NCBI RefSeq assembly: GCF_011492945.1 | Contig: NZ_CP045119.1 | Coordinates: 2,666,001 to 2,730,000 of the forward strand | DNA length: 64,000 bases | Direction: 5' to 3' | Source of the DNA: Rubrobacter tropicus | GTDB taxonomy: Bacteria; Actinomycetota; Rubrobacteria; Rubrobacterales; Rubrobacteraceae | Notes under the pieces: model-generated | Databases searched by the model: none | The model's input: the letters and a program-made list of their open reading frames with translations, nothing else | Told to the model about the DNA's origin: nothing | Program-made: the position numbers and the translations under genes | Shown: positions 1-40,381 of the stretch, piece by piece | Layout: each line of letters opens with the position of its first letter | Numbering within the stretch: position 1 is the stretch's first letter

Positions 1-1441
1 TGTTCTCGGCCGCCTCGTCCGTTACCAGGTACAGGTTCGGGGCGATGACGAGCCCGTAGGACGAGAGGTCGGCTTCGGGATGGGCGAAGTCCACGGGCAC
101 GTTCGCCTCGAAGAGGGGCTTGTAGAACGAGTAGATCGCGTCATACGGAGGTCTGTCCGGTGAGTGGGATCCCGCGACCATCCGCACGTCCATCGACGGT
201 TTCGAGTCGAGCTCCAGCGCCCACCAGTTGTTCCAGTCGAGCAGGATGGCGACCCTGGCTTCGCCCCTCGCCCCGAGCAACGAGTCGAGCTTCGTGAGGT
301 CCTCGCCAAGCCTCTTCACCTCGTGCCAACTGCGCGATTCTTTGGGCTCGACGTGCGGGACCATGGCGCTGTGGAACTTCTCGGCCCCGGCCTTAGACTG
401 GCGCCACTGGAAGAACATGATCCCCTCGGCGCCGCGGGCCACGGACTGCAGGCTCCACAGGCGCATCTGGCCCGGCCTCTTGGGGGCGTTGCGCCGGCGC
501 CAGTTCACCCTGACCGTGGTCTGTTCCATGAGGACCCAGGGATCTCCCCCGCCGAGAGACCTCATCAGGTCGCGGCTCGCGGCCGCCCGAACGTGGGCCT
601 CGGGGTCGGCGGGGTCGGGGTAGGAGTCGTCGGAGACCACGTCCTCGCGCGCGGCCCACTTCCAGTAGTCGACGGGCTTGAAGAAACCCATGAAGTTCGT
701 GGTGATGGGAACGTCGGGCGTTGCTCCCCTGAGTATCCCTTTCTCCATCTCGTACAGCTCCAGCAGGGCGTCGGAGGAGAAGCGGCGGAAGTCCAACTGC
801 TGGGTAGGGTTGGCGAAGGTAGGGGCGCTCCGCGGGGGCAGTATCTCGCCCCAGTCGCCGTAGCCCTGGCTCCAGAACGCCGTCCCCCACGCCTCGTTGA
901 GCGTTTCGAGGTCGCCGTAGCGGTCCCGCAGCCAGCCGCGGAAGTGAACGGCGGAGGCGTCACAGTAGCACTCGGCAACGTGGCAACCGTACTCGTTGTT
1001 GACGTGCCACATCGCTAGCGCCGGGTGGTCCCCGTAGCGCCCGGCCATGCGCCCGACCAGGTCCGCGGCACGCTCTTTGTAGGCGGCGCTGCTCGGGCAG
1101 TAGTGCTGGCGGGCGCCGGGATAGAGGATCGTCCCGTCCTCCGTGACGGGCAGGCTCTCGGGGTGGAGTACGCTGAGCCAGGGCGGCGGGGAGGCGGTCG
1201 CCGTCGCGAGGTTCGCCATGATGCCGTTGTCGTGCAACAGGTCGAGGATCCGGTCCAGCCAGCCGAAGTCGTGCTCGCCGGGGCGCGGCTCCAACTTCGC
1301 CCAGGAGAAGATGCCGACGGAGACCAGGTTGACGTTCGCCTCGCGCATCAGGCGGACGTCTTCGCGCCAGACTTCTTCCGGCCACTGCTCGGGGTTGTAG
1401 TCGCCGCCGTAGATGACGTGCGGGACTTTCGGGGAGATCAA
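1..1441 (-). CDS. GH42 beta-galactosidase (3' part outside window)
   Basis: This is a glycoside hydrolase family 42 beta-galactosidase, which removes terminal beta-galactosyl residues from oligosaccharides in the cytoplasm. The first 480 codons are present and the C-terminus runs off the left edge. The TTG start at 1441 follows an AGAGGAGG ribosome site by about 7 nt. Early residues read YGGDYNPEQW, typical of GH42. The acid/base glutamate is E150 in HVNNEYGCH and the nucleophile is E306 in VLMEQ. Cysteines near 115, 153, 158 and 160 match the GH42 zinc cluster. The trimerisation domain begins at LLDWNNWWALE. It lies last in an operon behind a binding protein and two permeases, so it probably processes the imported galactoside. 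Confidence 0.93.
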   Translation of the reverse strand, partial: MISPKVPHVIYGGDYNPEQWPEEVWREDVRLMREANVNLVSVGIFSWAKLEPRPGEHDFGWLDRILDLLHDNGIMANLATATASPPPWLSVLHPESLPVTEDGTILYPGARQHYCPSSAAYKERAADLVGRMAGRYGDHPALAMWHVNNEYGCHVAECYCDASAVHFRGWLRDRYGDLETLNEAWGTAFWSQGYGDWGEILPPRSAPTFANPTQQLDFRRFSSDALLELYEMEKGILRGATPDVPITTNFMGFFKPVDYWKWAAREDVVSDDSYPDPADPEAHVRAAASRDLMRSLGGGDPWVLMEQTTVRVNWRRRNAPKRPGQMRLWSLQSVARGAEGIMFFQWRQSKAGAEKFHSAMVPHVEPKESRSWHEVKRLGEDLTKLDSLLGARGEARVAILLDWNNWWALELDSKPSMDVRMVAGSHSPDRPPYDAIYSFYKPLFEANVPVDFAHPEADLSSYGLVIAPNLYLVTDEAAEN

Positions 1442-1484: not shown

Positions 1485-2366
1485 TCAGTCCTTCAGGGCG
1501 CCGAAGGTGAGGCCGCCCTGCCAGAACCGTTGCAAAAACAGGAAGGAGACGACGATGGGCAGGATGGAGACCAGCGCCCCCGTGATGACGAGCGGGAAGA
1601 GCGGTTGGGCGCCGCCGCCGGCGCTCGCTATGGAGTTCCACGAGGCGAGGCCGACGGTTAGCGGGTACAGCTCCGGCGTGCTCAGGACGACCAGGGGCAG
1701 GAAGTAGTTGTTCCACGTCGCCACGAAGGAGAGAAGCAGCACCGTCACGAAGCCGGGCATGAGCACGCGAAGGGCGACGCTCCAGAAGATGCGAAGTTCT
1801 CCGGCGCCGTCTACCCTGGCCGCGTTCAGGAGGTCGTCGGGAACGGACTGTTCCGCGTAGACCCGCATCAGGTAGACGCCGAAAGGCGAGACGAGGGAGG
1901 GCAGGATCACGGCGAGCGGGGTGTCGATGAGCCCGATCTTGCTCAGCAGCAAGTAGGTGGGTATCACGAGCGCTGTCTGCGGGATCATGATGGAGCCCAG
2001 GATGACGGCGAAGAGCGGTATGCGCCCCGGAAACCGGTACTTGGCGAAGGCGTAGCCCGCTATGGTCGAGATGAAGGCCGCCCCGACCGCGCTGGTAACG
2101 GAGTAGTAGGCGGTGTTCCAGAGCCAGTTCAAGTAGACGCCGTCGTCGCGGGTGAAGGTCTCGCGCAGGTTGGCCGGCAGGTCGAAGGAGGAGAACCAGA
2201 GGCCGAAGGACGTGAACAGCTCGTCGTTGTCCTTCGTGGCCGAGACCACTAGGTAGAAGAGCGGGAGCAGCGAGTAGACCAGGAAGACGCCGAGCAGGGC
2301 GGTCGTGATGACGCGGGTGGAGAGCCCGGCCCCGGGCCCGCCCCCCTTGTTCGTGGTCGGGGCCAT
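1485..2366 (-). CDS. Carbohydrate ABC transporter permease, MalG type
   Basis: This 293-residue inner-membrane protein is the second permease of a CUT1-type sugar importer. It shows about six membrane segments, the first at residues 20-40 (ALLGVFLVYSLLPLFYLVV). The cytoplasmic EAA-type loop that contacts the ATPase reads NAARVDGAGELRIFW near residue 190. The ATG start overlaps the stop of the upstream permease by one base (TGATG), so the two are translationally coupled. The GH42 beta-galactosidase starts about 40 nt downstream. No ATPase gene is present in the window, so a shared MsmK/MalK-type subunit is likely. Confidence 0.93.
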   Translation of the reverse strand: MAPTTNKGGGPGAGLSTRVITTALLGVFLVYSLLPLFYLVVSATKDNDELFTSFGLWFSSFDLPANLRETFTRDDGVYLNWLWNTAYYSVTSAVGAAFISTIAGYAFAKYRFPGRIPLFAVILGSIMIPQTALVIPTYLLLSKIGLIDTPLAVILPSLVSPFGVYLMRVYAEQSVPDDLLNAARVDGAGELRIFWSVALRVLMPGFVTVLLLSFVATWNNYFLPLVVLSTPELYPLTVGLASWNSIASAGGGAQPLFPLVITGALVSILPIVVSFLFLQRFWQGGLTFGALKD

Positions 2367-3310
2367 CAGCCGCGCGCCTCCCCCCTGTTGGTCACGAGCA
2401 TGAAGACGTAAGAGCAGACGACAACGACGGCTCCGAGGGCGAACGAGATAGCCGCTGAGTACTCGTACTGCTGGTTGGTGAACGCGAGCGAGTAGGCGTA
2501 GAGGTTCGGGGAGAAGGCCTGCCCGATGGCGCCGGGCGCCAGCGGCTGCAAGAGCTGGGGCTCGTTAAAGAGCTGCAACGTGCCGATGATCGAGAAGACC
2601 ACCGTCAGGAAAAGGGCGGGCAGGATCAGGGGGATCTTGATGTACAGCGCGATCTGCCACCCTTTGGCCCCGTCCACGGCCCCGGCGTCCCTGAGCTCCC
2701 CCGGCACCGCCTGGAGCGCGGCGTAGAGGATGATCATGTTGTACCCCGTGAACTCCCAGGTCACGATGTTGGCTATGGAAGGCAAGATCCAGTTCTCCGA
2801 GAGAAAGTCCGGCGCGGGAAGACCCAGATAACCCGCTAGCTGGGCGAACGGCCCGAAGTCCTGCCCGTACAGATACCCCCAGATGAGCGCGGCCACCACG
2901 CTAGGCACCGCGTACGGAAGAAAAAACCCTAGCCGGAAGAGCGTCCGAAACCAAGTCACGCCGCTGTCCAGCACGAGCGCCAGGACGAGGGCGAACCCGA
3001 GCATGATCGGCACCTGGAAGACCCCGTATACCAGAAGCCGCCTCACGCCCCCCAGAAAAGCCGGGTCGGTGAAAGCCCTGACGTAGTTCTCGGCGCCCAC
3101 GAACACGGTCCCCCCGACGAGCCTGTCCGCGAAGACGCTGATCCCAAGCGCGTACCCGAGCGGCAAGACGAGGAACAACAAGAACAGCACCAGGAACGGC
3201 AAGAGGAAGAGGTAGGGGATGATCAACTGCCGCCTGCGCCTCTCCCGCGCCGCCACGCCTGGACGTTTCGGCTCGGGGGAGGGCCGCCCCTCCCCAGTCT
3301 GGACCGTCAA
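2366..3310 (-). CDS. Carbohydrate ABC transporter permease, MalF type
   Basis: This 314-residue protein is the first permease of the same CUT1 importer. It has a basic cytoplasmic N-terminus rich in arginine (AARERRRRQ), a first membrane segment near residues 30-55, and a coupling loop containing DAGAVDGAKGWQIALYI near residue 210. It sits between the binding protein and the MalG-type permease, the usual order in such operons. The gap to the binding-protein stop is about 40 nt, so all four genes are probably on one transcript. Confidence 0.93.
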   Translation of the reverse strand: MTVQTGEGRPSPEPKRPGVAARERRRRQLIIPYLFLLPFLVLFLLFLVLPLGYALGISVFADRLVGGTVFVGAENYVRAFTDPAFLGGVRRLLVYGVFQVPIMLGFALVLALVLDSGVTWFRTLFRLGFFLPYAVPSVVAALIWGYLYGQDFGPFAQLAGYLGLPAPDFLSENWILPSIANIVTWEFTGYNMIILYAALQAVPGELRDAGAVDGAKGWQIALYIKIPLILPALFLTVVFSIIGTLQLFNEPQLLQPLAPGAIGQAFSPNLYAYSLAFTNQQYEYSAAISFALGAVVVVCSYVFMLVTNRGEARG

Positions 3311-3352: not shown

Positions 3353-4678
3353 TTATTGGACTTTGAAGCCCTGCTGCTTGGCGAAGCCGGAGACTTTCTC
3401 CTGGAGGTTGGCCGGCACGTCCGCGAACTCGACGCTGCCGCCGGCCGCGTCGCCGAACTGCTCGCCCATCTGCGTGTAGACGTAGTCCTGGAAGGGGCTG
3501 AACTCGAATCCGGTGTCGACCCTGTTCGAGGCCTCGACGAAGACGGAGTTGACGGCCTGGCCGCCGTAGAAGTCGTTCTTGAGGTTCTTGAAGTCCGGGC
3601 TCTCGAGCAGCTCGTTGAGCACCGGGAATAGGAACTGCTTGGTCGTGTAGAGCTTCGTCGGCTCCGGGGCGTTGGTTAGCCACTTGGCGAGCGTGGCCGC
3701 CTCTTCCGGGTACTCGCTCTGGGTGGTGACGGCCAGCGTGGAGCCGCCCCAGTTGGAGGAGGCCTGCGCCCCGGACTCCCACTGCGGGAGCGGCGCGGCC
3801 CGCCACTTGCCCTTGGATTCCCCGGCCACGCCTTCCAGGAAGACCGGGCCCCAGGCCGCGGTGGGCCAGGTCGCGTAGGTGCCCTTCGCGAAGGACCTGT
3901 ACCAGTCGTTCGTGAAGCCCGGCTTCGTCGCGATCAGGTCCCGCTCCACCAGGTCGCCCCAGAACTCAGAGAGCCGCCGGAACTCGGGACTGTCGAGGTC
4001 TATCGACACCGTGGTGCCATCTACGCTGAACGGACGCGCGCCGGCCTGCCACATGAGGCCCGTGATCCAACCCCCATCCTCAGGCGTGAAGTCCGCGAGG
4101 AAGGTTTCGGGGCTTGCCTGCTTGAGCTTCTCGGCCTGCTGCGCGAACTGCTCCCAGGTCTCCGGCACCCGGAGCCCGAACTCGTCGAAGACGTCCTTGC
4201 GGTAGAGGAGCCCCATCGGCCCGCTGTCCCACGGCATCGCGAAGACGGCGTCGCCATCCGATACTTGCTCCCACGTCCACTCGGCGTAGTCCCCCTTGAG
4301 GTCGTTTGCCCCGTACTCGGAGATGTCGGCGAGGCCCTCGATCTGCCGAAACGTCGGCACGAACTGGAACTCCATGTGGACCACGTCGGGGGCGCCGGAA
4401 CCGGCCTTCAACGCCGTCCTTAATTTCTGGTACTCGTCGGCGCCCTGCCCGGCGTTGACCAGCTTGACCTTTATGTTCGGGTGGGCCTTCTCGAACATGT
4501 CTACCTGCTCCTGAAAGTCCGGCAGCCAAGCCCACAACGTCAGCTCCGTCTTCCCACCAGACGAACCGCCGCCGCACCCGGCAAGCCCCCCAAGCACGGA
4601 AGCACCCATCACGGCGCCCCCGCCCAGCCTCAAGAAATCCCCCCGCGTCAGACCCCTGCGCCGAAGCTCTCCGTTCAC
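3353..4678 (-). CDS. Extracellular sugar-binding lipoprotein of ABC importer
   Basis: This is a family 1 extracellular solute-binding protein that captures the sugar outside the membrane. I chose the GTG at 4678 because it follows AAGGAG by about 7 nt and gives a compact signal. Longer in-frame starts up to 4822 add residues without export features. The N-terminus has a Tat-like stretch LTRGDFLRLGGG with one of the twin arginines replaced by glycine, then a lipobox LAGC, so it is a predicted lipoprotein. The mature protein begins LTLWAWLPDFQEQVDMFEKA, typical of MalE-like proteins. It heads the operon with two permeases and GH42 and is preceded by a consensus-like promoter. Confidence 0.92.
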   Translation of the reverse strand: MNGELRRRGLTRGDFLRLGGGAVMGASVLGGLAGCGGGSSGGKTELTLWAWLPDFQEQVDMFEKAHPNIKVKLVNAGQGADEYQKLRTALKAGSGAPDVVHMEFQFVPTFRQIEGLADISEYGANDLKGDYAEWTWEQVSDGDAVFAMPWDSGPMGLLYRKDVFDEFGLRVPETWEQFAQQAEKLKQASPETFLADFTPEDGGWITGLMWQAGARPFSVDGTTVSIDLDSPEFRRLSEFWGDLVERDLIATKPGFTNDWYRSFAKGTYATWPTAAWGPVFLEGVAGESKGKWRAAPLPQWESGAQASSNWGGSTLAVTTQSEYPEEAATLAKWLTNAPEPTKLYTTKQFLFPVLNELLESPDFKNLKNDFYGGQAVNSVFVEASNRVDTGFEFSPFQDYVYTQMGEQFGDAAGGSVEFADVPANLQEKVSGFAKQQGFKVQ

Positions 4679-4847
4679 TCCAACTCCTTCCGAAACCCGG
4701 TGCCCGGATTCCCGTCGGAAACGCGCCGAACGACTAACGAACACGAACCCCGAACAGGCGTAACCGGTACGCCGCCACAGGCCCGCGGACAGAACGCCCC
4801 ACCCCGTTTCCTCTCCCCTCAAACACCGATCCTCACAAACCGTTCCC

Positions 4848-5006: not shown

Positions 5007-5936
5007 TCAACATATCCGTCCGCGTTTGCCGGCGGGTCCGTGGCCTACCGGGGCTTCGCCGATCCAGCGCTCGTCTATAGGCTCGGAGGCGAGTTGGTAG
5101 CGGGAGTCGGAGGAGAGCCGGATGCGGTCGGAGCGGTTGTCGAGGCTGGCGTGGATGGTGTAGGCGCTGAAGACGAGGAGGTCGCCGGCGCGGTACTCGG
5201 CCGTGAGCCAGCGTCCCCCGAGTCGCTCACGCAGGTCGGCCGGGTCGGAGGAGATCCTGCCGTCCCACCGCCACCCGTAGAGGTTCGAGTTGTGTCTTGC
5301 GTGCTCCTCCTCGCCCTCGACGTTCTGGCAGTAGGTATCGACGTCGCGCGTGAGGTAGCCTTCGCGGAGGCTTTGGAGGCGGTGGGAGCCTTCGAGGACC
5401 ATGAGGCCGCCGAGAACGTAGTCCACGTCGCCGAGCGGGGTCCAGGCCGTGTAGAGGTCATGGGTGCCGCGTCCCATGAACACCACGTCCCCGTGCGGGT
5501 GCGTCCCGAGGCCCGGGGCTACGGCCCGCATCCAGGTAAAGTCGTAGTGTCGCACGGGCCCGCCGAGGAAACGTCCGAAGAACTCCATCATGCGGCCGGA
5601 GTAGAGTAGGCGGTGCAGTGGTTCGTTGTCGTGGGCGAGGTCGGGCTTGAACCTGAGCCCCGAATCGGGCCGGGCCACGGCGTCGCCGGGGGGACGGTCC
5701 GGGTCGGTCAGGCCCTCCTTTGCGAGCCTGTCGGTTACGCTCTTTCGCGCCTCGAGGACCAGGGCCCGGTCCAAGAGGCCGGGCAGGTAGAGGTAGCCGT
5801 CCAGGGCCATGCGCCCCCGCAGGGCTTCGGCGTCGCCGCGAACGTCCGTCGAATCCCGGAGCGGGCCGAAGCTCGCCGGCGAAAGGTCGAGCTCGACGCC
5901 CTGTGACGCCAGGCCCGAGAGTCTCGCGTTCACCAC
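5007..5936 (-). CDS. Phytanoyl-CoA dioxygenase (PhyH) family protein
   Basis: This 309-residue protein belongs to the Fe(II)/2-oxoglutarate-dependent PhyH family. It starts at GTG 5936 (a second GTG is three bases in). The iron-binding HxD motif is seen in THPHGDVVF near residue 150, and the distal histidine and 2-oxoglutarate-binding arginine in YTIHASLDNRSDRIR near residue 270. It is the last gene of a run with two GH4 glycosidases (gap about 50 nt). In this context the substrate is more likely a sugar-linked or small metabolite than a fatty acyl-CoA, but that is inference. Members of this family also include ectoine hydroxylase. Confidence 0.85.
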   Translation of the reverse strand: MVNARLSGLASQGVELDLSPASFGPLRDSTDVRGDAEALRGRMALDGYLYLPGLLDRALVLEARKSVTDRLAKEGLTDPDRPPGDAVARPDSGLRFKPDLAHDNEPLHRLLYSGRMMEFFGRFLGGPVRHYDFTWMRAVAPGLGTHPHGDVVFMGRGTHDLYTAWTPLGDVDYVLGGLMVLEGSHRLQSLREGYLTRDVDTYCQNVEGEEEHARHNSNLYGWRWDGRISSDPADLRERLGGRWLTAEYRAGDLLVFSAYTIHASLDNRSDRIRLSSDSRYQLASEPIDERWIGEAPVGHGPAGKRGRIC

Positions 5937-5986
5937 GGTCGTTACCCCCGTTCGTCTCTCTTACCAGTACGACCCGTGCAAATCCA

Positions 5987-7303
5987 TCAGGCGCTGCGGC
6001 GGCCGACCTCCGCGGTTCGGATGCCTTCCGGAAGCGTGTCGCCGTGGGCGTCTATCAGCTCGTCCACCATCGCGGCTATCTCGTCCAGGGAGAGCACGCT
6101 CGGGGCGTGGCGGTCCAACATGGCGGCGTGGTGGACGTGGTCGCGGCGGCCTTCGAGCGCGGCCCTCACCGTCAGGTTCTGGACGGCGGTGTGCGGGGCG
6201 CAGGTCGCGGCGCACTGGGGCGGGAGGTCGCCGACGTGGCAGGGGCGCAGGCCCGTGTCGTCGACCAGGACGGGGACCTCGACGCAGCGGCCTTCGGGGA
6301 GGTTCGTTATGAGGCCCGTGTTCTTCACGTTGCCGTAGATGGCGCGGGCCTGGCCGGTGGTCATCGAGTGGATTATGAGAGAGCCGTACTCGACGCTGCG
6401 CTCCAGCGGGAACTCCTCGCCGGCGAGCAGCTTGCGGCGGGTCTCGGCGTAAGAGACCAGGTTCTCCTCGCTGCGGCGGACGTACTCGTCCACGGGTATG
6501 TCGTAGCGTTCGACGAGATCTTCGTCCTTGAGAAAGTAGGGCAGGTACTCGGCGTTGTGCTCGCTCGACTCCGTGACGAAGAAGCCGAAGCGGCGCATCA
6601 ACTCGAAGCGGACCTTGTCCTTCTTGTACACGTCGGGGTCGTCCATCGCGGCGAAGAGGCGCGGGTAGGCGTCCTCGCCGCCCGCTTCGAGGCGCGTCAT
6701 CCAGGCGATGTGGTTAATGCCGGCGCACTCGTAGAGGAGGTCCTCGTGGTCGATGCCGATGTAGGAGGAGATCTGGCGCGCCGTGCCCTGCACGCTGTGG
6801 CAGAGCCCCACGCTCTTGACCTCGGGATGGGCCGTGTAGAGGGCCTCCATCAAGATGCCCATCGGGTTCGTGTAGTTCAGGAGCAGGGCCTCCGGGCAGA
6901 CCTCCCTCATGTCACGGGCCAGATCCAGCAAGAACGGGATGGTTCTGAGGCCCCGGAAAATGCCGCCTATGCCCATCGAGTCGGCGATCGTCTGCTTCAG
7001 GCCGTACTTGCGGGGGATATCGAAGTCGAGGAGGGTTGCCTCGTGCATCCCGATCTGGACGGCGTTTATTACGAAGTCGGCCCCGTCCAGGGCGGCCCTG
7101 CGATCCGCGTGCTCCTCGACCTTCGCTTCGGCCCCGAGTCGGTCAGAGGTCCACCGGGCCATCATGCCCGCGGTCTCCAGGCGCTCGGGGGCTATGTCGT
7201 GGAGGGCGACCGTCGCCCCGCGAAGTTCAGGGAACGAGAAGGTGTCCGTAAGCAGGTTCTTTGTGAAGACCACGCTCCCCGCACCGATAAAAGCTATCTT
7301 CAA
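5987..7303 (-). CDS. GH4 alpha-galactosidase/alpha-glucosidase, NAD- and Mn-dependent
   Basis: This 438-residue enzyme belongs to glycoside hydrolase family 4, which cleaves glycosides through NAD-dependent oxidation at C3 and elimination. The N-terminus KIAFIGAGSVVFTKNL is the Rossmann NAD-binding loop. The metal ligands are C168 in CHSVQGT and H198 in AGINHIAW, and NYTNPMG at residues 143-149 is the substrate and metal loop. CHSVQGT resembles MelA-type alpha-galactosidases, but specificity cannot be settled from sequence alone. A start at ATG 7303 follows AGAGAGGAAACG. The enzyme is cytoplasmic. It lies 83 nt behind a second GH4 gene and 50 nt before a PhyH gene. Confidence 0.92.
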   Translation of the reverse strand: MKIAFIGAGSVVFTKNLLTDTFSFPELRGATVALHDIAPERLETAGMMARWTSDRLGAEAKVEEHADRRAALDGADFVINAVQIGMHEATLLDFDIPRKYGLKQTIADSMGIGGIFRGLRTIPFLLDLARDMREVCPEALLLNYTNPMGILMEALYTAHPEVKSVGLCHSVQGTARQISSYIGIDHEDLLYECAGINHIAWMTRLEAGGEDAYPRLFAAMDDPDVYKKDKVRFELMRRFGFFVTESSEHNAEYLPYFLKDEDLVERYDIPVDEYVRRSEENLVSYAETRRKLLAGEEFPLERSVEYGSLIIHSMTTGQARAIYGNVKNTGLITNLPEGRCVEVPVLVDDTGLRPCHVGDLPPQCAATCAPHTAVQNLTVRAALEGRRDHVHHAAMLDRHAPSVLSLDEIAAMVDELIDAHGDTLPEGIRTAEVGRRSA

Positions 7304-7386
7304 AACGTTTCCTCTCTTCTCCGTGTGCCCGTGCCGGTTCAGGCCGCAATCATCTCACGGGGACAACCCCGGCGGAAAGCCCGTGG

Positions 7387-8718
7387 CTAGCGTCGCCAGG
7401 CTCCCACCTTCCGAAACTGCGGCAGCCATCGCTCCTCCGCTCCAAGCATCTCTTCTACCATCGTCCGTATCCGGGGCAGGGTGCAGACCGCGGCGGTCAG
7501 CGGGTCCAGCATCACCGCGTGGTGTACGGCCTCCTCGTCCCCCGTCAAGGCGGCCTCGACTACGAGCTCCTGCACGTTTACGTTGGTCCGGTTGAGGGCC
7601 GCGAGTTGGGTCGGGTAGAAGTCTACCGTCGTGGGTTGTACGCCGTTCGCGTCAACGAGGCAGGGGACCTCCACGCAACACCCGTTTGGAAGGGCCGGGA
7701 TCTTGCCGCGATTCGGCACGTTGCCGTTTATCTTGATCGGCCCGTCCGTCTCCATCGCCTCGATGATGTAAGACCCGTACTCGTGCGTTCGTCTCGTGGG
7801 AGTAAGCTCCTGAGCGTCCGGCGACCCTTCGAGCACGTCGAGGCAGTGGCGCAGGTATCCGCCTGTCCGGCCGAAATCGAACCAGTGGTCGCCCTCGTCT
7901 CTGAAGCGCGGCACGAGCTCTTCCTCGACCATCCGGGCGCTCTTGCGGAAGTACGGGGCGTACTCGCTGGCGTGGCCGCTCGATTCCGTGACGAAGAAAC
8001 CGAAGTGCTCCATAAGCTCGACGCGCACCGGCTCCCGCCCCCTGACGTCTTCGCGCCGGATGGCGGAACGGATCTCCGGGTACAGATCCTCCCCGCCCCG
8101 CCGAAAGTCCAGGAAGAAGGCCTGGTGGTTGATCCCGGCGCAAAGGTAATTGACCTCCTCATGGGGCGCCCCGGCCCACCCGGCCAGCATCTCGCTCGTC
8201 CCCTGAACGCTGTGGCAGAGCCCGACGTGGGGCCGTCCCGTGGCCACGTCGACGGCCCAGCAGTTCGCCGCCATCGGGTTCACGTAGTTGAGGAGCAGGG
8301 CTTCAGGAGCCAGCTCATCCATCTCGTCGCACAGGTCCAGAAGCACCGGGATGGTCCTCAAAGACCGGAAGACACCCCCAGGACCCAGAGTATCTCCCAC
8401 GCACTGCTCCACGCCGTAGCGCTGCGGGATCTCGATGTCGAGCGCGTAGGCGTCGAGTCCGCCCTGCTGGAACGTCGTCACGACGTAGTCAGCCCCGCGC
8501 AAGGCCTCCCGGCGGTCGGTCGTCGCCTCCACCGTGGCGCCGAGCTTCCGGCTGTCCACGATGTTCTGCACGAGGTCCCTGGACCTGCGAAGCCTCCCGG
8601 CGTCTATGTCCATGAGGGAGATCTTGCAGCCCCGCAAAGCCGGGGCGAGAAGGATGTCGCTGCACAGGTTGCGCGTGAAGACGGAGCTTCCGGCGCCGAT
8701 GAGGGCTATCTTGGGCAC
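7387..8718 (-). CDS. Second GH4 glycosidase (alpha-galactosidase-like)
   Basis: This is a paralogous GH4 enzyme of 443 residues. I chose GTG 8718 because GGAAGG lies 6 nt upstream and family members begin with PKIALIGAG. ATG 8733 is an alternative. The Rossmann loop is ALIGAGSSVFTRNL. The metal-binding cysteine is C168 in CHSVQGT and the histidine is H198 in AGINHQAF, at the same positions as in the neighbour. Tandem non-identical GH4 genes suggest that two related alpha-linked substrates, or two steps, are handled. The gap to the upstream nucleotidyltransferase-like gene is 147 nt. Confidence 0.91.
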   Translation of the reverse strand: MPKIALIGAGSSVFTRNLCSDILLAPALRGCKISLMDIDAGRLRRSRDLVQNIVDSRKLGATVEATTDRREALRGADYVVTTFQQGGLDAYALDIEIPQRYGVEQCVGDTLGPGGVFRSLRTIPVLLDLCDEMDELAPEALLLNYVNPMAANCWAVDVATGRPHVGLCHSVQGTSEMLAGWAGAPHEEVNYLCAGINHQAFFLDFRRGGEDLYPEIRSAIRREDVRGREPVRVELMEHFGFFVTESSGHASEYAPYFRKSARMVEEELVPRFRDEGDHWFDFGRTGGYLRHCLDVLEGSPDAQELTPTRRTHEYGSYIIEAMETDGPIKINGNVPNRGKIPALPNGCCVEVPCLVDANGVQPTTVDFYPTQLAALNRTNVNVQELVVEAALTGDEEAVHHAVMLDPLTAAVCTLPRIRTMVEEMLGAEERWLPQFRKVGAWRR

Positions 8719-8865
8719 AGGGGTACCTTCCATAATCTGGCGTCTCCGCGTTCGACCTTACATCCCTGCGAAGTTCCGCGCGACCGAAGGGCCGGCGCGC
8801 GTGGCGGGAGGTCGGCGCGAACTCCCTTCGAGTCCTTGCAACGAGGCTCTTTGGCAGGCATGCTC

Positions 8866-9906
8866 CTACCCTTCTATGCTTCGATTGTCGGCCATGATGG
8901 CTTCCGCCACCTCCCAAAGCCGCGGGAGAAACGCCTCGACCCGTTCGCCGCGCCGCTCGAGATCGCCAAACGAGGTTATCCCGAGGTCGGCCAGCAGGCA
9001 CCGAAATCCGGGGTCGAACGCCTCCTTCGTCTCCGGTGGCGCGTCGTGGTGGAGGACTTTTTGGCACCGCGCGTAGGTGGCGACGATCCAGAACACGGCC
9101 TCCCGATGAAGGCCGTGCTCGATCAGCTCCCGGCTCCCGTCGATGGCGACCGGGCGTCCGACGTCGCTGATGTCGGCGGCGAAAAAGAAGGGCGTCTCCA
9201 CAACCGTCTTTGCCGCGTCGAACGCATCGGCGAGCGAGGCGAGGTGACGCCCTGTCCGCTCCCGGCTCATTCGGGCGCAGCCCAGAAGATCCAGTAGTGA
9301 CTCGTGGAAGTCCGGGCGGCCGTATTCCGCGAGGAGCTCCCGCACCGCCTCGTACCTCCGCCGCACGGTCGGGTTCTTCAGGCCGGCCGCGAGCAGCACG
9401 TTGGCCGTGTTGCCCGTTGCGAACAGCCAGGCGGTTACCCCGTCGTGGAAGGGAGCGCGCCCGTCCAGCGACCGAAGGTGCCTGAATATCTTGCCCCGGA
9501 CGCCCTCGCAGCGCTTTCTTACCCACCGGCGTTGGGCGTACTCCCCGGACACTGCCCTCTGGAGCTCGGCCAACCGGCCCGACGGGTCCGAGATGATACC
9601 CGGAGTCCTGAAGCTCCCCGCCAACTCGGGAAGCCCCAGGATCGTCTCCGGCGACCGGAACTGCTCGTCCGGAAGGTAAGACACTTCTAGCAGCGCCCCC
9701 AGGTAGCGGAACTTCCCGGGCCTGGCACTCGATTCGGGGTCCTCGAGGACCACCATCACGTCCACGTCGGAGGTCGCGGGCAGCACCGCGCCCTCGGGCA
9801 GCCAGTTGGTCGAGCCGTGGAGGAAGGCGCCGCGGAAGCCCGGAAGCCCGGCGGCTTCCTCGACCACCCACCTCCGCGCCGCGTCCCTGGCATCACCGAC
9901 GATCAT
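8866..9906 (-). CDS. Nucleotidyltransferase-superfamily protein
   Basis: This 346-residue protein has the minimal nucleotidyltransferase signature near residues 29-52: HGSTNW followed by DVDVMVV. That is the GS..DxD arrangement of the pol-beta superfamily, which transfers nucleotides to small molecules, proteins or RNA. The remainder is helical with no motif I recognise. It lies 15 nt downstream of a PhyH gene and upstream of two GH4 genes, so it may be cotranscribed with sugar catabolism genes. An aminoglycoside-adenylyltransferase-like role is possible but not supported by any specific motif. The acceptor is unknown. Confidence 0.72.
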   Translation of the reverse strand: MIVGDARDAARRWVVEEAAGLPGFRGAFLHGSTNWLPEGAVLPATSDVDVMVVLEDPESSARPGKFRYLGALLEVSYLPDEQFRSPETILGLPELAGSFRTPGIISDPSGRLAELQRAVSGEYAQRRWVRKRCEGVRGKIFRHLRSLDGRAPFHDGVTAWLFATGNTANVLLAAGLKNPTVRRRYEAVRELLAEYGRPDFHESLLDLLGCARMSRERTGRHLASLADAFDAAKTVVETPFFFAADISDVGRPVAIDGSRELIEHGLHREAVFWIVATYARCQKVLHHDAPPETKEAFDPGFRCLLADLGITSFGDLERRGERVEAFLPRLWEVAEAIMADNRSIEG

Positions 9907-9921
9907 GGGCCAGGATCTCCC

Positions 9922-10728
9922 CTAGTGCACCCCTGCGTCTTCCGTCCCGCAAGGCCCGCCGCCGACGCTCTCGCCGAGCTTCACCTCTTCTCCGCCCATC
10001 GTGAGGATCGGGCGGTACCACTTCGAGATCCTCTCGGAAGACCTCCCAACGTAGTGGCAGATGAAGGAGCGGCGGAAACGGTCCTCCGTCCTGTTTGGCT
10101 GCGAGCCGTGAACGAGCTGCCCGTTGAAGAAGAGCACATCCCCCGGTTCCATAACGACCGGCACGGCTTCCAGACCTTCCGGGACGGGGACGAAGTCGCG
10201 GGTGAAGGAGACGCCGGTATCGGCCTCCTCGGGGCAGAAGAGGTCGATGTCGTGGGTACCCGGGACGACTTCGAGGCAACCGTTCTCCTCGTCGGCTCGG
10301 TCGAGGGCGACCCAGGCGGCGATGCAGGTGCCGGGCTCCACCTTGAGGTAGAAGTTGTCCTGGTGGAGCGCCTGCCCCTTCGCGCCGGCGGGCTTGAAGT
10401 ACATCATGCTCTGCGCCGCGAGCGGCTCCTCGCCGAAGAGCCCGGTAAGCACTTCACCGATCCGGTCGTCGAGCAGGTAACGGAGCGCCGTCTCGTTTAC
10501 CCGGTGCGGGTGCATCATGCGCGGGTAGAGCTTGAGCACGTCACCGTCTGCCTCTTCGGGGCTCGCCGGCTCGAAACAGCCGGGGATCGGGCCTCCCGCG
10601 TGCATCCGCATGAAGTCGTCCAACAACCCCCGCACCTCTTCCGGCGCGAATAGACCCCTCGACACGAGGTAGCCGTTCTCGTGGAAGCTCCGGGCCTGCT
10701 CCGGCTCTGAACGCTGCCTGGTCTCCAT
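9922..10728 (-). CDS. Phytanoyl-CoA dioxygenase (PhyH) family protein
   Basis: This 268-residue Fe(II)/2-oxoglutarate dioxygenase starts at ATG 10728 behind GGGAGAGAGGG. An in-frame extension to 10806 exists but looks non-coding. The iron HxD motif is in ALHQDNFYL near residue 125. The distal histidine and arginine are in LVHGSQPNRTEDRFRRSF near residue 220. A C-terminal serine/glycine tail follows. It is the first gene of the PhyH-nucleotidyltransferase-GH4-GH4-PhyH run and is divergent from an AraC regulator 95 bp away, which probably controls it. Confidence 0.88.
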   Translation of the reverse strand: METRQRSEPEQARSFHENGYLVSRGLFAPEEVRGLLDDFMRMHAGGPIPGCFEPASPEEADGDVLKLYPRMMHPHRVNETALRYLLDDRIGEVLTGLFGEEPLAAQSMMYFKPAGAKGQALHQDNFYLKVEPGTCIAAWVALDRADEENGCLEVVPGTHDIDLFCPEEADTGVSFTRDFVPVPEGLEAVPVVMEPGDVLFFNGQLVHGSQPNRTEDRFRRSFICHYVGRSSERISKWYRPILTMGGEEVKLGESVGGGPCGTEDAGVH

Positions 10729-10811
10729 GAATCCCTCTCTCCCGCCTTCGTTGCCCGAAATGCTAGCGTCGGAGCCTCCGGGGTTGAATAGTCCCAACGG
10801 CTGCAAAGATG

Positions 10812-10817
10812 TACTAT
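10812..10817 (+). promoter_or_regulatory. -10 box of a probable leaderless AraC transcript
   Basis: TACTAT lies 6 nt before ATG 10824, and no ribosome site precedes that ATG. In actinobacteria a TANNNT box at this distance usually places the transcript start on the A of ATG. An inverted pair GTTG/CAAC at 10783-10798 lies between the divergent genes and may be an operator. Confidence 0.5.
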
Positions 10818-10823
10818 CCTGCT

Positions 10824-11651
10824 ATGAATTCCGACACGGAGCCGGCCCCTGGTCCCTATCCCCCGCCCGGAGTGCTGGTCGCCGGGCACTTCCGGGAGGA
10901 GTTTGGCTACAGGGTGCGCCGCCCCGGCGGTTCGGGCAACTGGCTGCTGACTTACACGCTCGGCGGGCGGGGTCTCTTCCGCCAGCCGGGGGCGAGCCTC
11001 TCCGCCGGTCCGGGGGACGTGGTCCTGCTGGAGCCCGGCGCCGCGCAGGACTACTCGGTGCCGGAGGGCAATCACTGGGAGTTCGTGTGGGCCCACTTCC
11101 AGCCTCGGATGGGGTGGTCGGAGTGGCTGCGGTTACCGGCGGCCGGGGAGGGCCTGTACCTCTCGCGGCTGGAGGACCCGCGGTCCCGCGGGCGCGTGAG
11201 GGGCGCGTTCTTCGGGCTGCTCGCCGACGCCCTCCCGGGACGCGGGCTGCAGGAAGAGCTGGCGCTCAACGGTCTCGAAGAGGTGTTGCTCGTCGCCGTG
11301 CGGGAGGCGGATAGCGCCGGAGAGCGCGGGATGGACGGGCGCGTGCGGCGGGTCCTGGCCTTGATCTCCGCGGACCCGGCCTCGCGCCACGACGTCCCCT
11401 CCCTCGCGCGGGCGGTCGCGCTCTCCCCCTCGCGCCTCGCGCACCTCTTCAAAGAGGAGACAGGCGGCTCGGTGATGGGCACCGTGCTTGCACTCAGGCT
11501 GCGTCAGGCGGCGCGGCTGCTCGAGCACACGGCCGGGAGCGTCAAAGACGTCTCGGAGCAGACCGGCTTCGAGTCCCCCTACTACTTTAGCCGCCGGTTC
11601 AGGCAGCACTACGGGGTGAGCCCGCGCCAGTACAGGCAGCAGAGGGTGTAG
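10824..11651 (+). CDS. AraC family transcriptional regulator
   Basis: This regulator of about 275 residues has an N-terminal cupin-like sugar-sensing domain (residues 20-100, with RPGGSGNWLLTYT and PGDVVLLEPG) and a C-terminal AraC double helix-turn-helix. The first helix pair is seen in SLARAVALSPSRLAHLFKEE and the second in KDVSEQTGFESPYYFSRRF. I chose ATG 10824 over ATG 10809 because a -10 box occupies 10812-10817. It faces away from the PhyH/GH4 run and is the likely local activator, inducer unknown. Confidence 0.9.
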   Translation: MNSDTEPAPGPYPPPGVLVAGHFREEFGYRVRRPGGSGNWLLTYTLGGRGLFRQPGASLSAGPGDVVLLEPGAAQDYSVPEGNHWEFVWAHFQPRMGWSEWLRLPAAGEGLYLSRLEDPRSRGRVRGAFFGLLADALPGRGLQEELALNGLEEVLLVAVREADSAGERGMDGRVRRVLALISADPASRHDVPSLARAVALSPSRLAHLFKEETGGSVMGTVLALRLRQAARLLEHTAGSVKDVSEQTGFESPYYFSRRFRQHYGVSPRQYRQQRV

Positions 11652-11726: not shown

Positions 11727-13289
11727 CTACGCAGGTGGCTCGGGGTTACCGGGGGCTGCGCCGAGCTTCAGGGTCTTCTTCTCGTTTTGCCACCTGACCG
11801 TGATCTCCAGGGGGATGGACGAGTCTGCTTCTATTCGGGGCTCTTCGGCGGTAGAGGTTCTGGGGGCGCAGGAGAGGTTCAGGGAGGCTTGGGGGCCGAA
11901 CGGGTAGCGCCGGACGCCGTGCCTTTCGAGGAGCCTGACGTCCCAGATCAGGCGGGAGTTCGGAACGTCGGCCCGCAGCCCGAAGACGTACTCGAGGAGG
12001 CCCGCGACGGGCGCGAGGCCGCTCCAGCCGACGAAGTCGGGCCTCGCGGGTTCGCCCGGCGCCGCGTCCTCGGGCGCGTAGTTCTCCCAGACGGTGCCGG
12101 TCTCACCGAAGACGCGGACCACGTTGTCCAGGTGGTTGCTGGCTATGTCGTGGGTGAGGGCGTGGCAGCCCACACGTTCGAGGCCACGTAAAACCATGTA
12201 GTTCGTCGGCGGCCACACGCCGCCGAGCCAGTATCCGCCGTCGGGACGGTACTCTGGGTGATCCGCAGAGATGGAGGGTACCCGGTGCGCGCGACGGAAC
12301 TCGTCCTTCCTCTCCAGGTGGGCGACGAACCGTTCCAGCCGCTCCTCGGGGACCACGCCGGCGAGGAGCGCCCAGTAGCCGCCGACGGTTTTGAGCTCGG
12401 AGAGCGTTCCGTCGGGGAAGGCGTCGTGGTAGAAGGCGGTCTCCTCGTTCCAGAGCCGGTCGTTCGCCGCGCGGGTCAGCCGGTCCCGTTCGTCGCGCAG
12501 GTCTCCTACTGCTTCTTCGTGGCCCAGTACCCCGCCCATCTTCACCAGCAAGTCCGCGGAGAGCGTCTGTTGGAGGCAGGCGTCGATCCAGACGAGGTGG
12601 GCGTGGTGGAGGATGCGCTCCGGCCAGCCTCGTTCGTCTTCGATCTCCCTCTCGGGGAAGCGGGGCTGGTTGTCCATGCCCGATCCGAGGCCCGTCGTCC
12701 AGTACGTGCCGTCGGGCCAGGTGCGGTACCGCCTGAGCCAGCGGTGGTAGGCGACCAGGACGGGGAAAACGCTGGCGAGGCGTTCGCGGTCACCACTCGT
12801 CGCGTAATGTTCCCACTCCGTCCAGGGCATCACGTTCGGGCCCGTGCCCGCCGGGTCGAAGCGCTGGAAGCGGTCGCGGCCGTCCTCGACCCCGATCTCC
12901 CGGCAGATAAAGCCGTCGGGGTGCTGCTTCGCGTACAGGTTGTCCAGCGTGCGCTGGAAATCGAAGGCGCGGGAGCCGTAGCGGGCGAAGAGCAGGATAA
13001 ACGCCGAGTCCCACATAAAGAGACAGTCGTTAAAGGCCGTGTCTATGAAGTTCGCGACGAAACCGCTACCGGGCGCGGGCCGGCGGAGGTTCCCGAAAGC
13101 CAGCTCCCACGCCTTCCAGTAGCAGGCTATCGAGCGGTCGTGGCCCTCCCAGAAAGGCGCGGGGAGGAGGTCCTTCGCGCCTTCGAACGTTGGCGGGGGA
13201 ACGTCCTCCGGTTCCATCTCGCGGAAGACGTTCTCCCTGGCAAGCGGCTCCTCCAGGTGCGTGTCGTAGTAGCCGTCGGGGCCTCGCAC
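11727..13289 (-). CDS. GH63/MGH1-like (alpha/alpha)6 glycoside hydrolase
   Basis: This 520-residue protein resembles the mannosylglycerate hydrolase-like and GH63 clan of inverting (alpha/alpha)6-barrel glycosidases. Conserved blocks are LFMWDSAF near residue 95, GLGSGMDNQPRF near residue 205 (likely catalytic aspartate), GGYWLGGVWPPTNY near residue 360, and TVWENY near residue 405 (likely catalytic glutamate). The short C-terminal region is beta-rich. There is no signal peptide, so it acts in the cytoplasm. It starts at GTG 13289, 13 nt after the permease stop, as the last gene of the second importer operon. Substrate could be an alpha-linked disaccharide or glycosyl-glycerate. Confidence 0.85.
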   Translation of the reverse strand: MRGPDGYYDTHLEEPLARENVFREMEPEDVPPPTFEGAKDLLPAPFWEGHDRSIACYWKAWELAFGNLRRPAPGSGFVANFIDTAFNDCLFMWDSAFILLFARYGSRAFDFQRTLDNLYAKQHPDGFICREIGVEDGRDRFQRFDPAGTGPNVMPWTEWEHYATSGDRERLASVFPVLVAYHRWLRRYRTWPDGTYWTTGLGSGMDNQPRFPEREIEDERGWPERILHHAHLVWIDACLQQTLSADLLVKMGGVLGHEEAVGDLRDERDRLTRAANDRLWNEETAFYHDAFPDGTLSELKTVGGYWALLAGVVPEERLERFVAHLERKDEFRRAHRVPSISADHPEYRPDGGYWLGGVWPPTNYMVLRGLERVGCHALTHDIASNHLDNVVRVFGETGTVWENYAPEDAAPGEPARPDFVGWSGLAPVAGLLEYVFGLRADVPNSRLIWDVRLLERHGVRRYPFGPQASLNLSCAPRTSTAEEPRIEADSSIPLEITVRWQNEKKTLKLGAAPGNPEPPA

Positions 13290-13302: not shown

Positions 13303-14214
13303 CTACTGCTTCATGCCGGTCGTGGCTATGCCTTCGATAATCTGGCGCTGGCCGATGATGTACACGATCAGGACCGGGATTATCGAGATCGCCGACCCGG
13401 CCATGAGCAGAGCGAAGTCCGTGGTGTACTGGCCCCGGAAGAAGTTGATGGCGAGCGGCACCGTGTAGTTCTCGACGCTGTTCAGGAAGATAAGCGGCCT
13501 GAAGAAGTTGTTCCACTGGAAGAGGAACGTGAAGATCCCGAACGCGGCGAGGGCTGGCCTTATCAGCGGCATGATTATCCGCCAGTAGATAGTCCAGCGG
13601 TTCGCCCCGTCCACGATCGCCGCCTCCTCGAGGTCTATCGGTAGGCCTTTTATGAACTGCCGCAGCAGGAAGACGCCGAAGGCGTTGAACAGGGCGTAGG
13701 GGATGATGAGCGAGAAGAGCGTGTCTATCAGGCCGAGGTTGCGCATGATTATGTAGAGCGGGATGATCGTCACCTGCTCTGGGACCATAAGCGTGGCCAG
13801 GAAGAGCATGAAGAGCGTCTTGCGGAAAGGGAACTCTATGCGGGCGAACGCGTAGGCGGCCATCGAGCACGTGAGCAGGTTCGCCAGCACCACGGTGACG
13901 GTCACGATGGCGCTGTTCATGTAGCCGGTGGAGAACGGCACGGAGTTCCAGGCGTTGACGTAGTTCTGGAACACGAACGGGTTGGGGATCCAGTTCGGCG
14001 GTATCTGGTAGAGCTGGCCGAGGTCCTTGACCGAGCCAAGGAGCATCCACGCGAAGGGCAGGATCATTATGATCGAGCCCAACGTCACGGCGAGGTACAG
14101 CAGCGCCGTCCCGACGAGGCGGGCGCCCCGCCCAGTCTCCACGGGGCCGGAGGCGCTCGCTGGCGGTGAGTTCCGCTCTTCTGCCAGGTTTTCCGGTGTC
14201 GTCACGCTTGCCAC
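13303..14214 (-). CDS. Carbohydrate ABC transporter permease, MalG type
   Basis: This 303-residue inner-membrane permease starts at GTG 14214, 7 nt behind a strong GAGGAGG. It has a cytoplasmic N-terminus of about 30 residues, a first membrane segment around residues 32-55 (LLYLAVTLGSIIMILPFAWMLL, shortened), and a coupling loop LEEAAIVDGANRWTIYW near residue 200. It pairs with the MalF-type permease 26 nt upstream and precedes the GH63-like glycosidase. Confidence 0.93.
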   Translation of the reverse strand: MASVTTPENLAEERNSPPASASGPVETGRGARLVGTALLYLAVTLGSIIMILPFAWMLLGSVKDLGQLYQIPPNWIPNPFVFQNYVNAWNSVPFSTGYMNSAIVTVTVVLANLLTCSMAAYAFARIEFPFRKTLFMLFLATLMVPEQVTIIPLYIIMRNLGLIDTLFSLIIPYALFNAFGVFLLRQFIKGLPIDLEEAAIVDGANRWTIYWRIIMPLIRPALAAFGIFTFLFQWNNFFRPLIFLNSVENYTVPLAINFFRGQYTTDFALLMAGSAISIIPVLIVYIIGQRQIIEGIATTGMKQ

Positions 14215-14240: not shown

Positions 14241-15152
14241 TCAGTCGTAGTGGACCCAGCGGCGTTGGATCCTGAATTGCAGAAGGGTGAACATCAGGAT
14301 CAGGGCGAACAGGATCACGGCGACCGCTGAGCTCCTGCCGTAGACGAAGTCCACGAAGGCGAGGTCGCGCAGGTAGGTGACCATCGTGACGGCGGAGTTG
14401 GCAGGCCCCCCGTCGAACGTCATGATGAAGACCTGGTCGAAGACCTGGAAAGAGTTGATGATGGCGATGACGAAGATAAAGAACGTGGTCGGGGAGAGGA
14501 GCGGCAGCGTGATGCTCCAGAAGATCTGCCACCGGTTCGCCCCGTCTATCTTGGCCGCCTCGTAGAAGACGGCGGGGATGCCCTGCAACCCGGCCAAGAA
14601 GATGACTATGTTGAACCCCATGCCGAGCCAGACGCTCATGATCGCTATGGACGGCATGACGTAGTTGGGGTCGAGCATCCACTGCGGGCCCGTCACGCCG
14701 AACCACACCTGCAGGTAGGTGTTGATGAGGCCGAAGTCCGGGTTGTACACCCACAGCCACACGACGCCGGCGGAGACGGCGCTGGTGACGACGGGCGCGA
14801 AGTAGAGCACGCGGAAGAAGTTCTTGAACCGCAGCTTGTTGAGCGCCAGCGCGGCCATCAGGGAGAGGATGACGGTCGTCGGCACCGTCATGGCCGTGTA
14901 GTAGACGGTGTTTGACAGGGCGTTCAAAAAGTCCGGGTTCGTGAGCTCGGTGGCGTAGTTGGAGAGGCCCACGAACGTCCTGTCCCCGAGGCCGTCCCAC
15001 TCGAGCAGGCTGAGCACCAGCACGTAGCCCAGCGGGTAGAGCACGAACACGAGCACCCCGAAAAGCTGCGGCAGGATAAAGAAATACCCCCACCCGATGT
15101 CGCCCCTGCGTTGCCTGCTGAGCTTGCCCGTTGTCTTTACCGCGCTACTCAC
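14241..15152 (-). CDS. Carbohydrate ABC transporter permease, MalF type
   Basis: This 303-residue protein is the other permease of the second CUT1 importer. It starts at GTG 15152 behind GAAGGGGAG. The first membrane segment is at about residues 22-45 (FFILPQLFGVLVFVLYPLGY) and the coupling loop FYEAAKIDGANRWQIFW is near residue 205. It follows the binding-protein gene by 81 nt. Confidence 0.93.
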   Translation of the reverse strand: MSSAVKTTGKLSRQRRGDIGWGYFFILPQLFGVLVFVLYPLGYVLVLSLLEWDGLGDRTFVGLSNYATELTNPDFLNALSNTVYYTAMTVPTTVILSLMAALALNKLRFKNFFRVLYFAPVVTSAVSAGVVWLWVYNPDFGLINTYLQVWFGVTGPQWMLDPNYVMPSIAIMSVWLGMGFNIVIFLAGLQGIPAVFYEAAKIDGANRWQIFWSITLPLLSPTTFFIFVIAIINSFQVFDQVFIMTFDGGPANSAVTMVTYLRDLAFVDFVYGRSSAVAVILFALILMFTLLQFRIQRRWVHYD

Positions 15153-16565: not shown

Positions 16566-16594
16566 CGCTATTTGCCCTTTCCCCAGGGGTTGTG

Positions 16595-17806: not shown

Positions 17807-17815
17807 TTGATCGAG

Positions 17816-37308: not shown

Positions 37309-37324
37309 AGTGTCCTCCTTTAGT

Positions 37325-40316: not shown

Positions 40317-40381
40317 GATACAACCTCCGATTCCCCTGTGCCGTGCCCCGCCGGACGCCGCGCCCGGCCCTGCTCCATAGC

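Follow-up and report, generated by a model that had tools for sequence, protein, structure and literature searches.

A candidate galactoside utilisation locus with three PhyH-type oxygenases in Rubrobacter tropicus

In a 64,000-nt stretch of the Rubrobacter tropicus genome (the window), two PhyH-type oxygenase genes enclose two GH4 glycosidase genes and a gene for a nucleotidyltransferase-fold protein (NT), which raises the question of what such oxygenases could contribute to the breakdown of glycosides. All five ORFs were confirmed on the minus strand (5007-10728), with an AraC gene divergent at 10809-11651. The intergenic gaps of 15, 83 and 50 nt given in the initial annotation were reproduced, while the fourth measures 132 rather than 147 nt, probably because of start-codon choice. 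The five genes belong to a locus of about 20 kb, extending from a GH42 gene to a third PhyH gene; this third PhyH, the GH42, a GH63/MGH1-like hydrolase and two sugar ABC importers (ABC1 and ABC2), which were not part of the initial finding, flank them. The order is GH42, ABC1, PhyH1, GH4a, GH4b, NT, PhyH2, divergent AraC, GH63/MGH1-like, ABC2, two AraC and PhyH3, as detailed below (G000 is this genome, G006 and G002 are congeneric genomes).

2-1441, minus strand: GH42 beta-galactosidase, N-terminal part (the gene runs past the window edge); PF02449, 527 bits; syntenic in G006 and G002
1485-2366, minus strand: ABC1 permease perm1b; orthologues in G006 (86%) and G002 (77%)
2366-3310, minus strand: ABC1 permease perm1a; orthologues in G006 (79%) and G002 (71%)
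3353-4822, minus strand: ABC1 sugar-binding protein SBP1; weak NCBIfam carbohydrate SBP matches; G006 76%, G002 54%
5007-5936, minus strand: PhyH1, predicted Fe/2OG oxygenase; PF05721, 49 bits, and alignment; orthologues in G006 (77%) and G017 (about 60%)
5987-7303, minus strand: GH4a, predicted NAD/metal-dependent GH4 of alpha-galactosidase type; PRK15076, 601 bits (cut-off 486); CHSV and GINH motifs
7387-8733, minus strand: GH4b, second predicted alpha-galactosidase-type GH4; PRK15076, 572 bits; orthologues in G006 (82%) and G019 (75%)
8866-9906, minus strand: NT, nucleotidyltransferase-fold protein; G31-S32, D47-x-D49 and E74 conserved; Foldseek matches to ANT(4')/KNTase
9922-10728, minus strand: PhyH2, predicted Fe/2OG oxygenase; PF05721, 127 bits, and alignment; PHYHD1-like pocket residues
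10809-11651, plus strand: AraC1 regulator, divergent from PhyH2; HTH_18 and AraC_binding; this divergent arrangement with PhyH2 recurs in several actinomycete records
11727-13289, minus strand: GH63/MGH1-like alpha-glycosidase; PF22422, 151 bits; orthologues in G006 (69%) and G002 (71%)
13303-14214, minus strand: ABC2 permease perm2b; orthologues in G006, G012 and Firmicutes
14241-15152, minus strand: ABC2 permease perm2a; orthologues in G006, G012 and Firmicutes
15234-16634, minus strand: ABC2 sugar-binding protein SBP2; orthologues in G006, G012 and the family of G404 (see below)
16889-17725, plus strand: AraC2 regulator; orthologues (67-68%) adjoin GH4a in G012 and G019
17807-18667, plus strand: AraC3 regulator; HTH_18, 80 bits
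18788-19894, plus strand: PhyH3, third PhyH, predicted Fe/2OG oxygenase; PF05721, 125 bits; G006 orthologue (83%) in the same place; fragment in G008

The grouping of PhyH with GH4 genes is not due to chance, since all three PhyH genes of the whole genome are found at this locus (within one 15-kb stretch), as are two of the three GH4 genes. Both GH4 proteins contain the N- and C-terminal domains PF02056 and PF11975 (about 190-206 bits; Pfam cut-off 23-24) and, with PRK15076 scores well above the curated cut-off, are by their sequences alpha-galactosidase-type enzymes. As in MelA-type GH4, they keep the Rossmann GAGS start for NAD binding together with CHS(V) and GINH; GAGS, GLCHSV and GINH (the latter two with metal-binding Cys and His) are invariant in the GH4 alignment. 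They differ from the MelA type in forming two divergent copies (45% identical), placed in tandem among PhyH genes. Neither galK nor galT (nor galE) was recognised beside the glycosidases within the window. An inositol route inside the window was considered and rejected, because iolB belongs to an iol-like cluster of its own, about 0.97 Mb from this locus.

Further information came from the genomes of relatives. The neighbourhood is conserved in G006, apart from NT and the divergent AraC, with the order GH42-ABC1-PhyH1-GH4a-(GH36-like)-GH4b-PhyH2-GH63-ABC2-PhyH3 and proteins 65-86% identical. In G002, GH42-ABC1-GH4a-GH63-DUF624 form a contiguous block in which all three PhyH positions are empty; ABC2 is also absent, and no PhyH, SBP2 or GH4b was found elsewhere in that genome. 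The joint presence and absence of these genes is a pattern based on three genomes. The ABC1 importer follows the possession of PhyH, since it is more alike between G000 and G006 than the core genes predict: for GH42, GH4a, GH63 and DUF624 it is G002 that is closest to G006, whereas for each of the three ABC1 proteins G006 has its closest counterpart in G000, with G002 as the outlier (for SBP1, 76 versus 54/59%).

The reading that we prefer, with moderate confidence, is that this locus serves the utilisation of galactosides, that its PhyH-type Fe(II)/2-oxoglutarate oxygenases are accessory enzymes performing oxidative O-dealkylation, and that NT is an accessory of ABC2 that contributes no pathway step. 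The two importers would take up galactosides, of which GH42 would cut the beta-linked and the two GH4 enzymes (NAD- and metal-dependent, C3-oxidising) the alpha-linked forms, while the GH63/MGH1-like enzyme and the AraC regulators may round off the locus. The substrate of the three oxygenases would be the compound as imported or the aglycone once released, and their task would be to strip a group that blocks the glycosidases or later steps, most likely by hydroxylation beside an ether oxygen, i.e. by oxidative O-dealkylation. They apparently extend the diet to galactosides bearing a group that needs prior oxidative removal. The initial annotation had proposed glycoside breakdown with hydroxylation, to be checked by a search for conserved PhyH-GH4 neighbourhoods; since this combination is conserved in G006 and is present or absent as a set, this part of the proposal is reasonable. 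Because three PhyH genes come and go in company with two importers and a GH4 galactosidase, the candidates for their substrate narrow down to galactosides.

It is possible, if rather less than probable, that separate modules adjoin here, namely a galactoside operon (GH42, ABC1, GH4, GH63) and, beside it, an AraC1-regulated PhyH2 and other PhyH genes, whose role would be unrelated (detoxification or a secondary metabolite, for example). The AraC1-PhyH2 pair is portable: Streptomyces, Nonomuraea and a further actinomycete (G349) carry it unaccompanied by GH4, and part of the set can therefore work without GH4; as G019 in turn contains GH4a-GH4b and wholly lacks PhyH, neither needs the other. The absence of NT and AraC1 from G006 fits such modularity, and the gaps of 132 and 184 nt, together with a promoter-like site before SBP1, make separate transcripts possible. 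However, every PhyH gene of the genome is at this locus, three separate PhyH positions are all occupied in both G000 and G006 but vacant in G002, ABC1 tracks PhyH possession, and the PhyH1 orthologue of G017 shares a contig with GH36, galK and galT. GH4a orthologues adjoin galK/galT in G012 and G018. In G008, the PhyH3 fragment occurs without the rest of the set; this genome is 79% complete and the gene lies at a contig edge.

PhyH genes are common in some bacteria, with 2 to 43 of them in each of 23 out of 24 genomes examined (mostly Paenibacillus); to our knowledge, most have no known substrate. The three proteins of this locus exceed the PF05721 cut-off (22 bits), and the alignment shows that PhyH1 retains the iron triad H148-x-D150, H262 with R273 for 2OG, and PhyH2 the corresponding H122-x-D124, H207 and R217. 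O-Demethylation of ribose is known for PHYHD1 and for bacterial PhyH enzymes, and a docking-based proposal assigns the holding of the sugar to PHYHD1 residues K102, H105, Q139, F161 (Tyr in bacteria) and W277 (PMC12709175). At the first four of these positions PhyH2 has R/H/Q/Y, including the bacterial Tyr, with a Trp nearby, and PhyH3 has R/M/Q/Y, although some of these residues are common to other PhyH proteins and are not demethylase-specific (EctD has the His and Gln, human PHYH the Lys and Tyr). PhyH2 shares with the PHYHD1/FJS 2'-O-methyl nucleoside demethylases (PMC12709175) the PF05721 domain and the H-x-D...H motif, and its residues in the putative sugar-holding places are similar, but the sequence similarity is remote, the gene context is different and no nucleoside genes were recognised at the locus. 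By this analogy, oxidative O-demethylation is the leading candidate chemistry. Models of other functions were rejected for PhyH2: ectoine hydroxylase (TIGR02408; 36.9 versus an equivalog cut-off of 336.5 bits) and methylphosphonate hydroxylase (44.9 versus 500 bits). The Fe/2OG chlorinating enzyme/halogenase model (TIGR01762; 60 versus 226 bits, the iron-binding Asp being present instead of Ala/Gly) and that of pentalenic-acid hydroxylase (far under the cut-off) were likewise discarded.

A narrower version, which we regard as rather unlikely, is that the PhyH enzymes serve as oxidative O-demethylases in a novel pathway that breaks down O-methylated alpha-galactosides. The substrates could be galactosides with a methylated ring, given that the GH4 mechanism requires a free 3-OH, or galactosyl-cyclitols (galactosyl-pinitol/ononitol, for example) with an O-methyl-inositol aglycone that would be demethylated and passed to dehydrogenase/TIM-barrel enzymes. 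Porphyran use is reported to involve P450-type O-demethylation of 6-O-methyl-D-galactose (PMC10033563); the likeness would lie in freeing galactose from a methyl ether ahead of sugar catabolism, with a P450 system there but an Fe/2OG PhyH and a putative substrate here. If the PhyH proteins are O-dealkylases, they would provide an Fe/2OG-based equivalent to the P450 route known for methylated algal sugars. Should the O-methyl route be true, the ABC2-PhyH pairing in Actinomycetota and Firmicutes would mark a widespread uptake-plus-demethylation system.

This pairing recurs well beyond the genus. Within the family of the host, SBP2 is confined to G000, G006 and G012, and it is present in 16 of the 105 genomes in the family that includes G404 (a Paenibacillus). 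Of 18 Firmicutes loci with SBP2, 7 have a PhyH gene no more than about 10 kb from it, versus about 0.6 expected from PhyH counts. These PhyH proteins are not orthologues of PhyH1-3, and GH4 is absent there.

NT matches no Pfam or NCBIfam model, but its predicted structure (pLDDT 95) finds ANT(4')/kanamycin nucleotidyltransferases (Foldseek probability 1.0, with E about 1e-3 and a whole-length TM of 0.28-0.35), so the label "nucleotidyltransferase-like" was right. It appears to share with these enzymes the fold and the catalytic GS...DxD...E, while its helical part is larger and a PDB sequence search gave no significant match. That NT nucleotidylates the released sugar or the hydroxylated product, the further step suggested initially, is improbable: G006 lacks NT though it keeps nearly all else, the gene stands alone in most of about 80 loci, and the fold resembles antibiotic-modifying enzymes, with no sugar-1-phosphate nucleotidyltransferase among the structure matches listed. 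Yet NT and PhyH2 have the same orientation and are only 15 nt apart. In Firmicutes, NT recurs near ABC2 orthologues at 7 of 18 loci, and in Alicyclobacillus herbarius it shares the ABC2 locus with two PhyH genes. NT is dispensable, and it probably belongs with ABC2, not with GH4. A defence-system role, which had a weak match only, was set aside.

It is very improbable that the PhyH enzymes hydroxylate an ectoine-like osmolyte or use sulfo- or phosphono-compounds as substrates, with compatible solutes as the cargo of the importers. The weak PhyH2 matches to ectoine and methylphosphonate hydroxylases are far under their cut-offs, nothing specific to sulfo- or phosphono-compounds was recognised among the nearby genes, and the galactose surroundings of GH4a and PhyH1 orthologues point elsewhere. 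In favour of this reading, the GH63-type protein has mannosylglycerate/glucosylglycerate hydrolases among its relatives, and an Fe/2OG sulfoquinovose dioxygenase, SqoD, exists (PMC12890257). SqoD resembles the case considered here in that an Fe/2OG oxygenase acts on a monosaccharide in sugar catabolism, but it cleaves a C-S bond, and sulfo-sugar genes were not recognised at our locus. Literature on PhyH with alpha-galactosidase, on AraC/Rubrobacter, on sugar ABC clusters and on pinitol demethylation contained no description of such a cluster. Plasmid-borne GH4 with PhyH was also considered and discarded; a single record (Ruegeria B32) has both fairly near each other, with about 15 genes between them.

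The five genes in question, which the initial annotation had read as a possible glycoside breakdown pathway with hydroxylation and nucleotidylation, were all confirmed on the minus strand. Together with a divergent regulator gene and a third gene for a predicted Fe/2OG oxygenase (PF05721), they are as follows:

5007-5936, minus strand: PhyH1, predicted oxygenase (Pfam PhyH)
5987-7303, minus strand: GH4a, alpha-galactosidase-type glycosidase (Pfam, complete GH4)
7387-8733, minus strand: GH4b, as GH4a (Pfam, complete GH4)
8866-9906, minus strand: NT, nucleotidyltransferase-like protein
9922-10728, minus strand: PhyH2, predicted oxygenase (Pfam PhyH)
10809-11651, divergent from PhyH2: AraC1, regulator
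18788-19894: PhyH3, third PhyH

From PhyH2 towards PhyH1 the intergenic gaps are 15, 132, 83 and 50 nt. The set forms the middle of a larger locus, in the order GH42, ABC1 (an importer with binding protein SBP1), PhyH1, GH4a, GH4b, NT, PhyH2, AraC1, GH63/MGH1-like, ABC2 (a second importer, with SBP2), AraC2, AraC3, PhyH3. All PhyH genes of the genome (4.58 Mb in two contigs), exactly three, are in this locus, as are two of its three GH4 genes; the third GH4 gene (C1:463718-465049, L150) belongs to a different locus, in which a sugar ABC importer is accompanied by Gfo/Idh and TIM-barrel-like genes. Alignment showed that catalytic residues are retained in PhyH1 (H148-x-D150, H262, R273) and PhyH2 (H122-x-D124, H207, R217), as are GAGS, CHSV and GINH in both GH4 proteins, whose alpha-galactosidase subfamily scores are 601 and 572 bits (cut-off 486).

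The PhyH-GH4 neighbourhood is conserved in G006, of the same genus (orthologues 65-86% identical), as GH42-ABC1-PhyH1-GH4a-[GH36-like]-GH4b-[ABC exporter]-PhyH2-GH63-ABC2-PhyH3-DUF624, a locus without NT and AraC1. An ORF resembling a phospholipase A2-type domain (L094:3951-4568) takes the place of AraC1. TIM-barrel, Gfo/Idh/MocA and ThuA genes directly follow DUF624 in G006; their window counterparts at 33449-42447, where Gfo/Idh/MocA oxidoreductases are clustered with two ThuA proteins and a pair of xylose-isomerase-like TIM-barrel proteins, are separated from PhyH3-DUF624 by a 13-kb stretch. G002, also of this genus (93% complete), carries GH42-ABC1-GH4a-GH63-DUF624 on one contig and lacks, at three positions, PhyH1, GH4b-NT-PhyH2-AraC1 and ABC2-AraC2-AraC3-PhyH3, the last replaced by a methyltransferase-like gene; PhyH, SBP2 and GH4b were not found in the rest of this 93% complete genome. 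Among 40 family genomes, PhyH occurs only in the window's genome and G006 (three each), G017 (one), G036 (two) and G008 (a PhyH3 fragment adjoining DUF624 at a contig edge). The two in G036, a distant family member, are in tandem downstream of a seemingly peptide-type binding protein (C295, L133).

Comparison of the window's genome, G006 and G002 gave an independent sign of coupling. In GH42, GH4a, GH63 and DUF624, G006 and G002 resemble each other most (83, 89, 80 and 76%), with the window's genome as outlier, whereas for all three ABC1 proteins the window's genome and G006 are closest (86, 79 and 76%) and G002 is the outlier, its SBP1 being only 54-59% identical to the other two. In these three genomes the importer type therefore tracks possession of the PhyH set rather than core-gene history.

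Of the proposed pathway, the PhyH-GH4 association stands and is apparently coupled, in a galactoside-type actinobacterial locus, but the nucleotidylation step is not supported: NT is missing in G006 and stands alone in most of 80 loci (Chloroflexota, Bacillota, Actinomycetota). The protein had no match in Pfam, NCBIfam or PDB sequences; G31-S32, D47-x-D49 and the nearly invariant E74 are kept across a 29-sequence alignment, and its model (pLDDT 95) is nearest to ANT(4')/kanamycin nucleotidyltransferase, with a low whole-length TM-score. Members of its family (about 345 residues, 45-65% identity across phyla, without a Pfam model) occur widely, as a rule as lone genes, in Paenibacillus, Streptomyces, Microbispora and Chloroflexota (L007-L086).

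On a less likely reading, PhyH2-AraC1, NT and the GH4 tandem are separate modules: besides the lone NT genes, PhyH2 with divergent AraC1 is found without GH4 in Nonomuraea, Streptomyces and G349, and GH4a-GH4b without any PhyH in G019. The PhyH2 neighbourhood of G155 (same phylum) is like that of Streptomyces chartreusis, which points to Actinomycetota as the phylum; one short match between the second contig and a Rubrobacter marinus plasmid is a single direct hint that the family may be Rubrobacteraceae. The most fitting view of the locus is that of a galactoside core to which parts that also exist on their own were added.

Recurrent association is also observed around ABC2. Within the family to which the Paenibacillus G404 belongs, 16 of 105 genomes have an SBP2 orthologue; two more come from Alicyclobacillus herbarius and Paenibacillus taihuensis, for 18 Firmicutes loci in all. 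PhyH lies within about 10 kb in seven of these, against 0.6 expected from a rough mean of about 13 PhyH per 7.5 Mb (Poisson P about 4e-6, ignoring relatedness, several loci being close relatives); in G504 and G508 it comes immediately downstream of the permease and is co-directional with it. None of these PhyH genes is orthologous to PhyH1-3. NT adjoins the importer in 7/18, A. herbarius having both, and no GH4 was found near SBP2 in the 18 loci. The recurrent partner of ABC2 is therefore PhyH or NT, GH4 being seen in this role only in the present actinobacterial family. A protein of roughly 425 residues with weak DUF455 (ferritin-like) similarity adjoins the importer in 12/18 (L022:3911-5197, L147:2930-4201, L163, L167-L173).

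In G012 the GH4a orthologue has galT-galE-galK and an SBP2-type importer nearby, in G018 it has GH42-galT-galK, and a 9-kb contig of G017 has PhyH1 two to three genes from GH36, galK and galT (the gal and GH36 names being readings of the sequences); neither galK nor galT was recognised within the window. These contexts make alpha- and beta-galactosides, as a class rather than a specific compound, the most likely substrates. Since the GH4 redox mechanism requires a free 3-OH, a galactoside with a substituent on O-3 would not be cleaved until an oxygenase had taken that group off. Oxidative O-dealkylation is our leading guess for the PhyH reaction.

PHYHD1-related PF05721 enzymes, including bacterial ones, demethylate the 2'-O-methyl ribose of nucleosides with release of formaldehyde, a reaction not shared by human PHYH (2025; PMC12709175). 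In a profile search with PhyH2 and its relatives, the nearest solved structures were PHYH and PHYHD1. The proposed sugar-holding positions of PHYHD1 are Lys102, His105, Gln139 and Phe161, the last of them Tyr in the bacterial enzymes (PMC12709175); the corresponding residues are Arg, His, Gln and Tyr in PhyH2 and Arg, Met, Gln and Tyr in PhyH3. This resemblance to PHYHD1-type demethylases is suggestive only, because EctD also has the His and Gln, and human PHYH the Lys and Tyr. Rather than being attached to the galactose, the methyl group might belong to a cyclitol aglycone, as in galactosyl-pinitol or galactosyl-ononitol; the genome has an iol-like cluster, including IolB, about 0.97 Mb from the locus.
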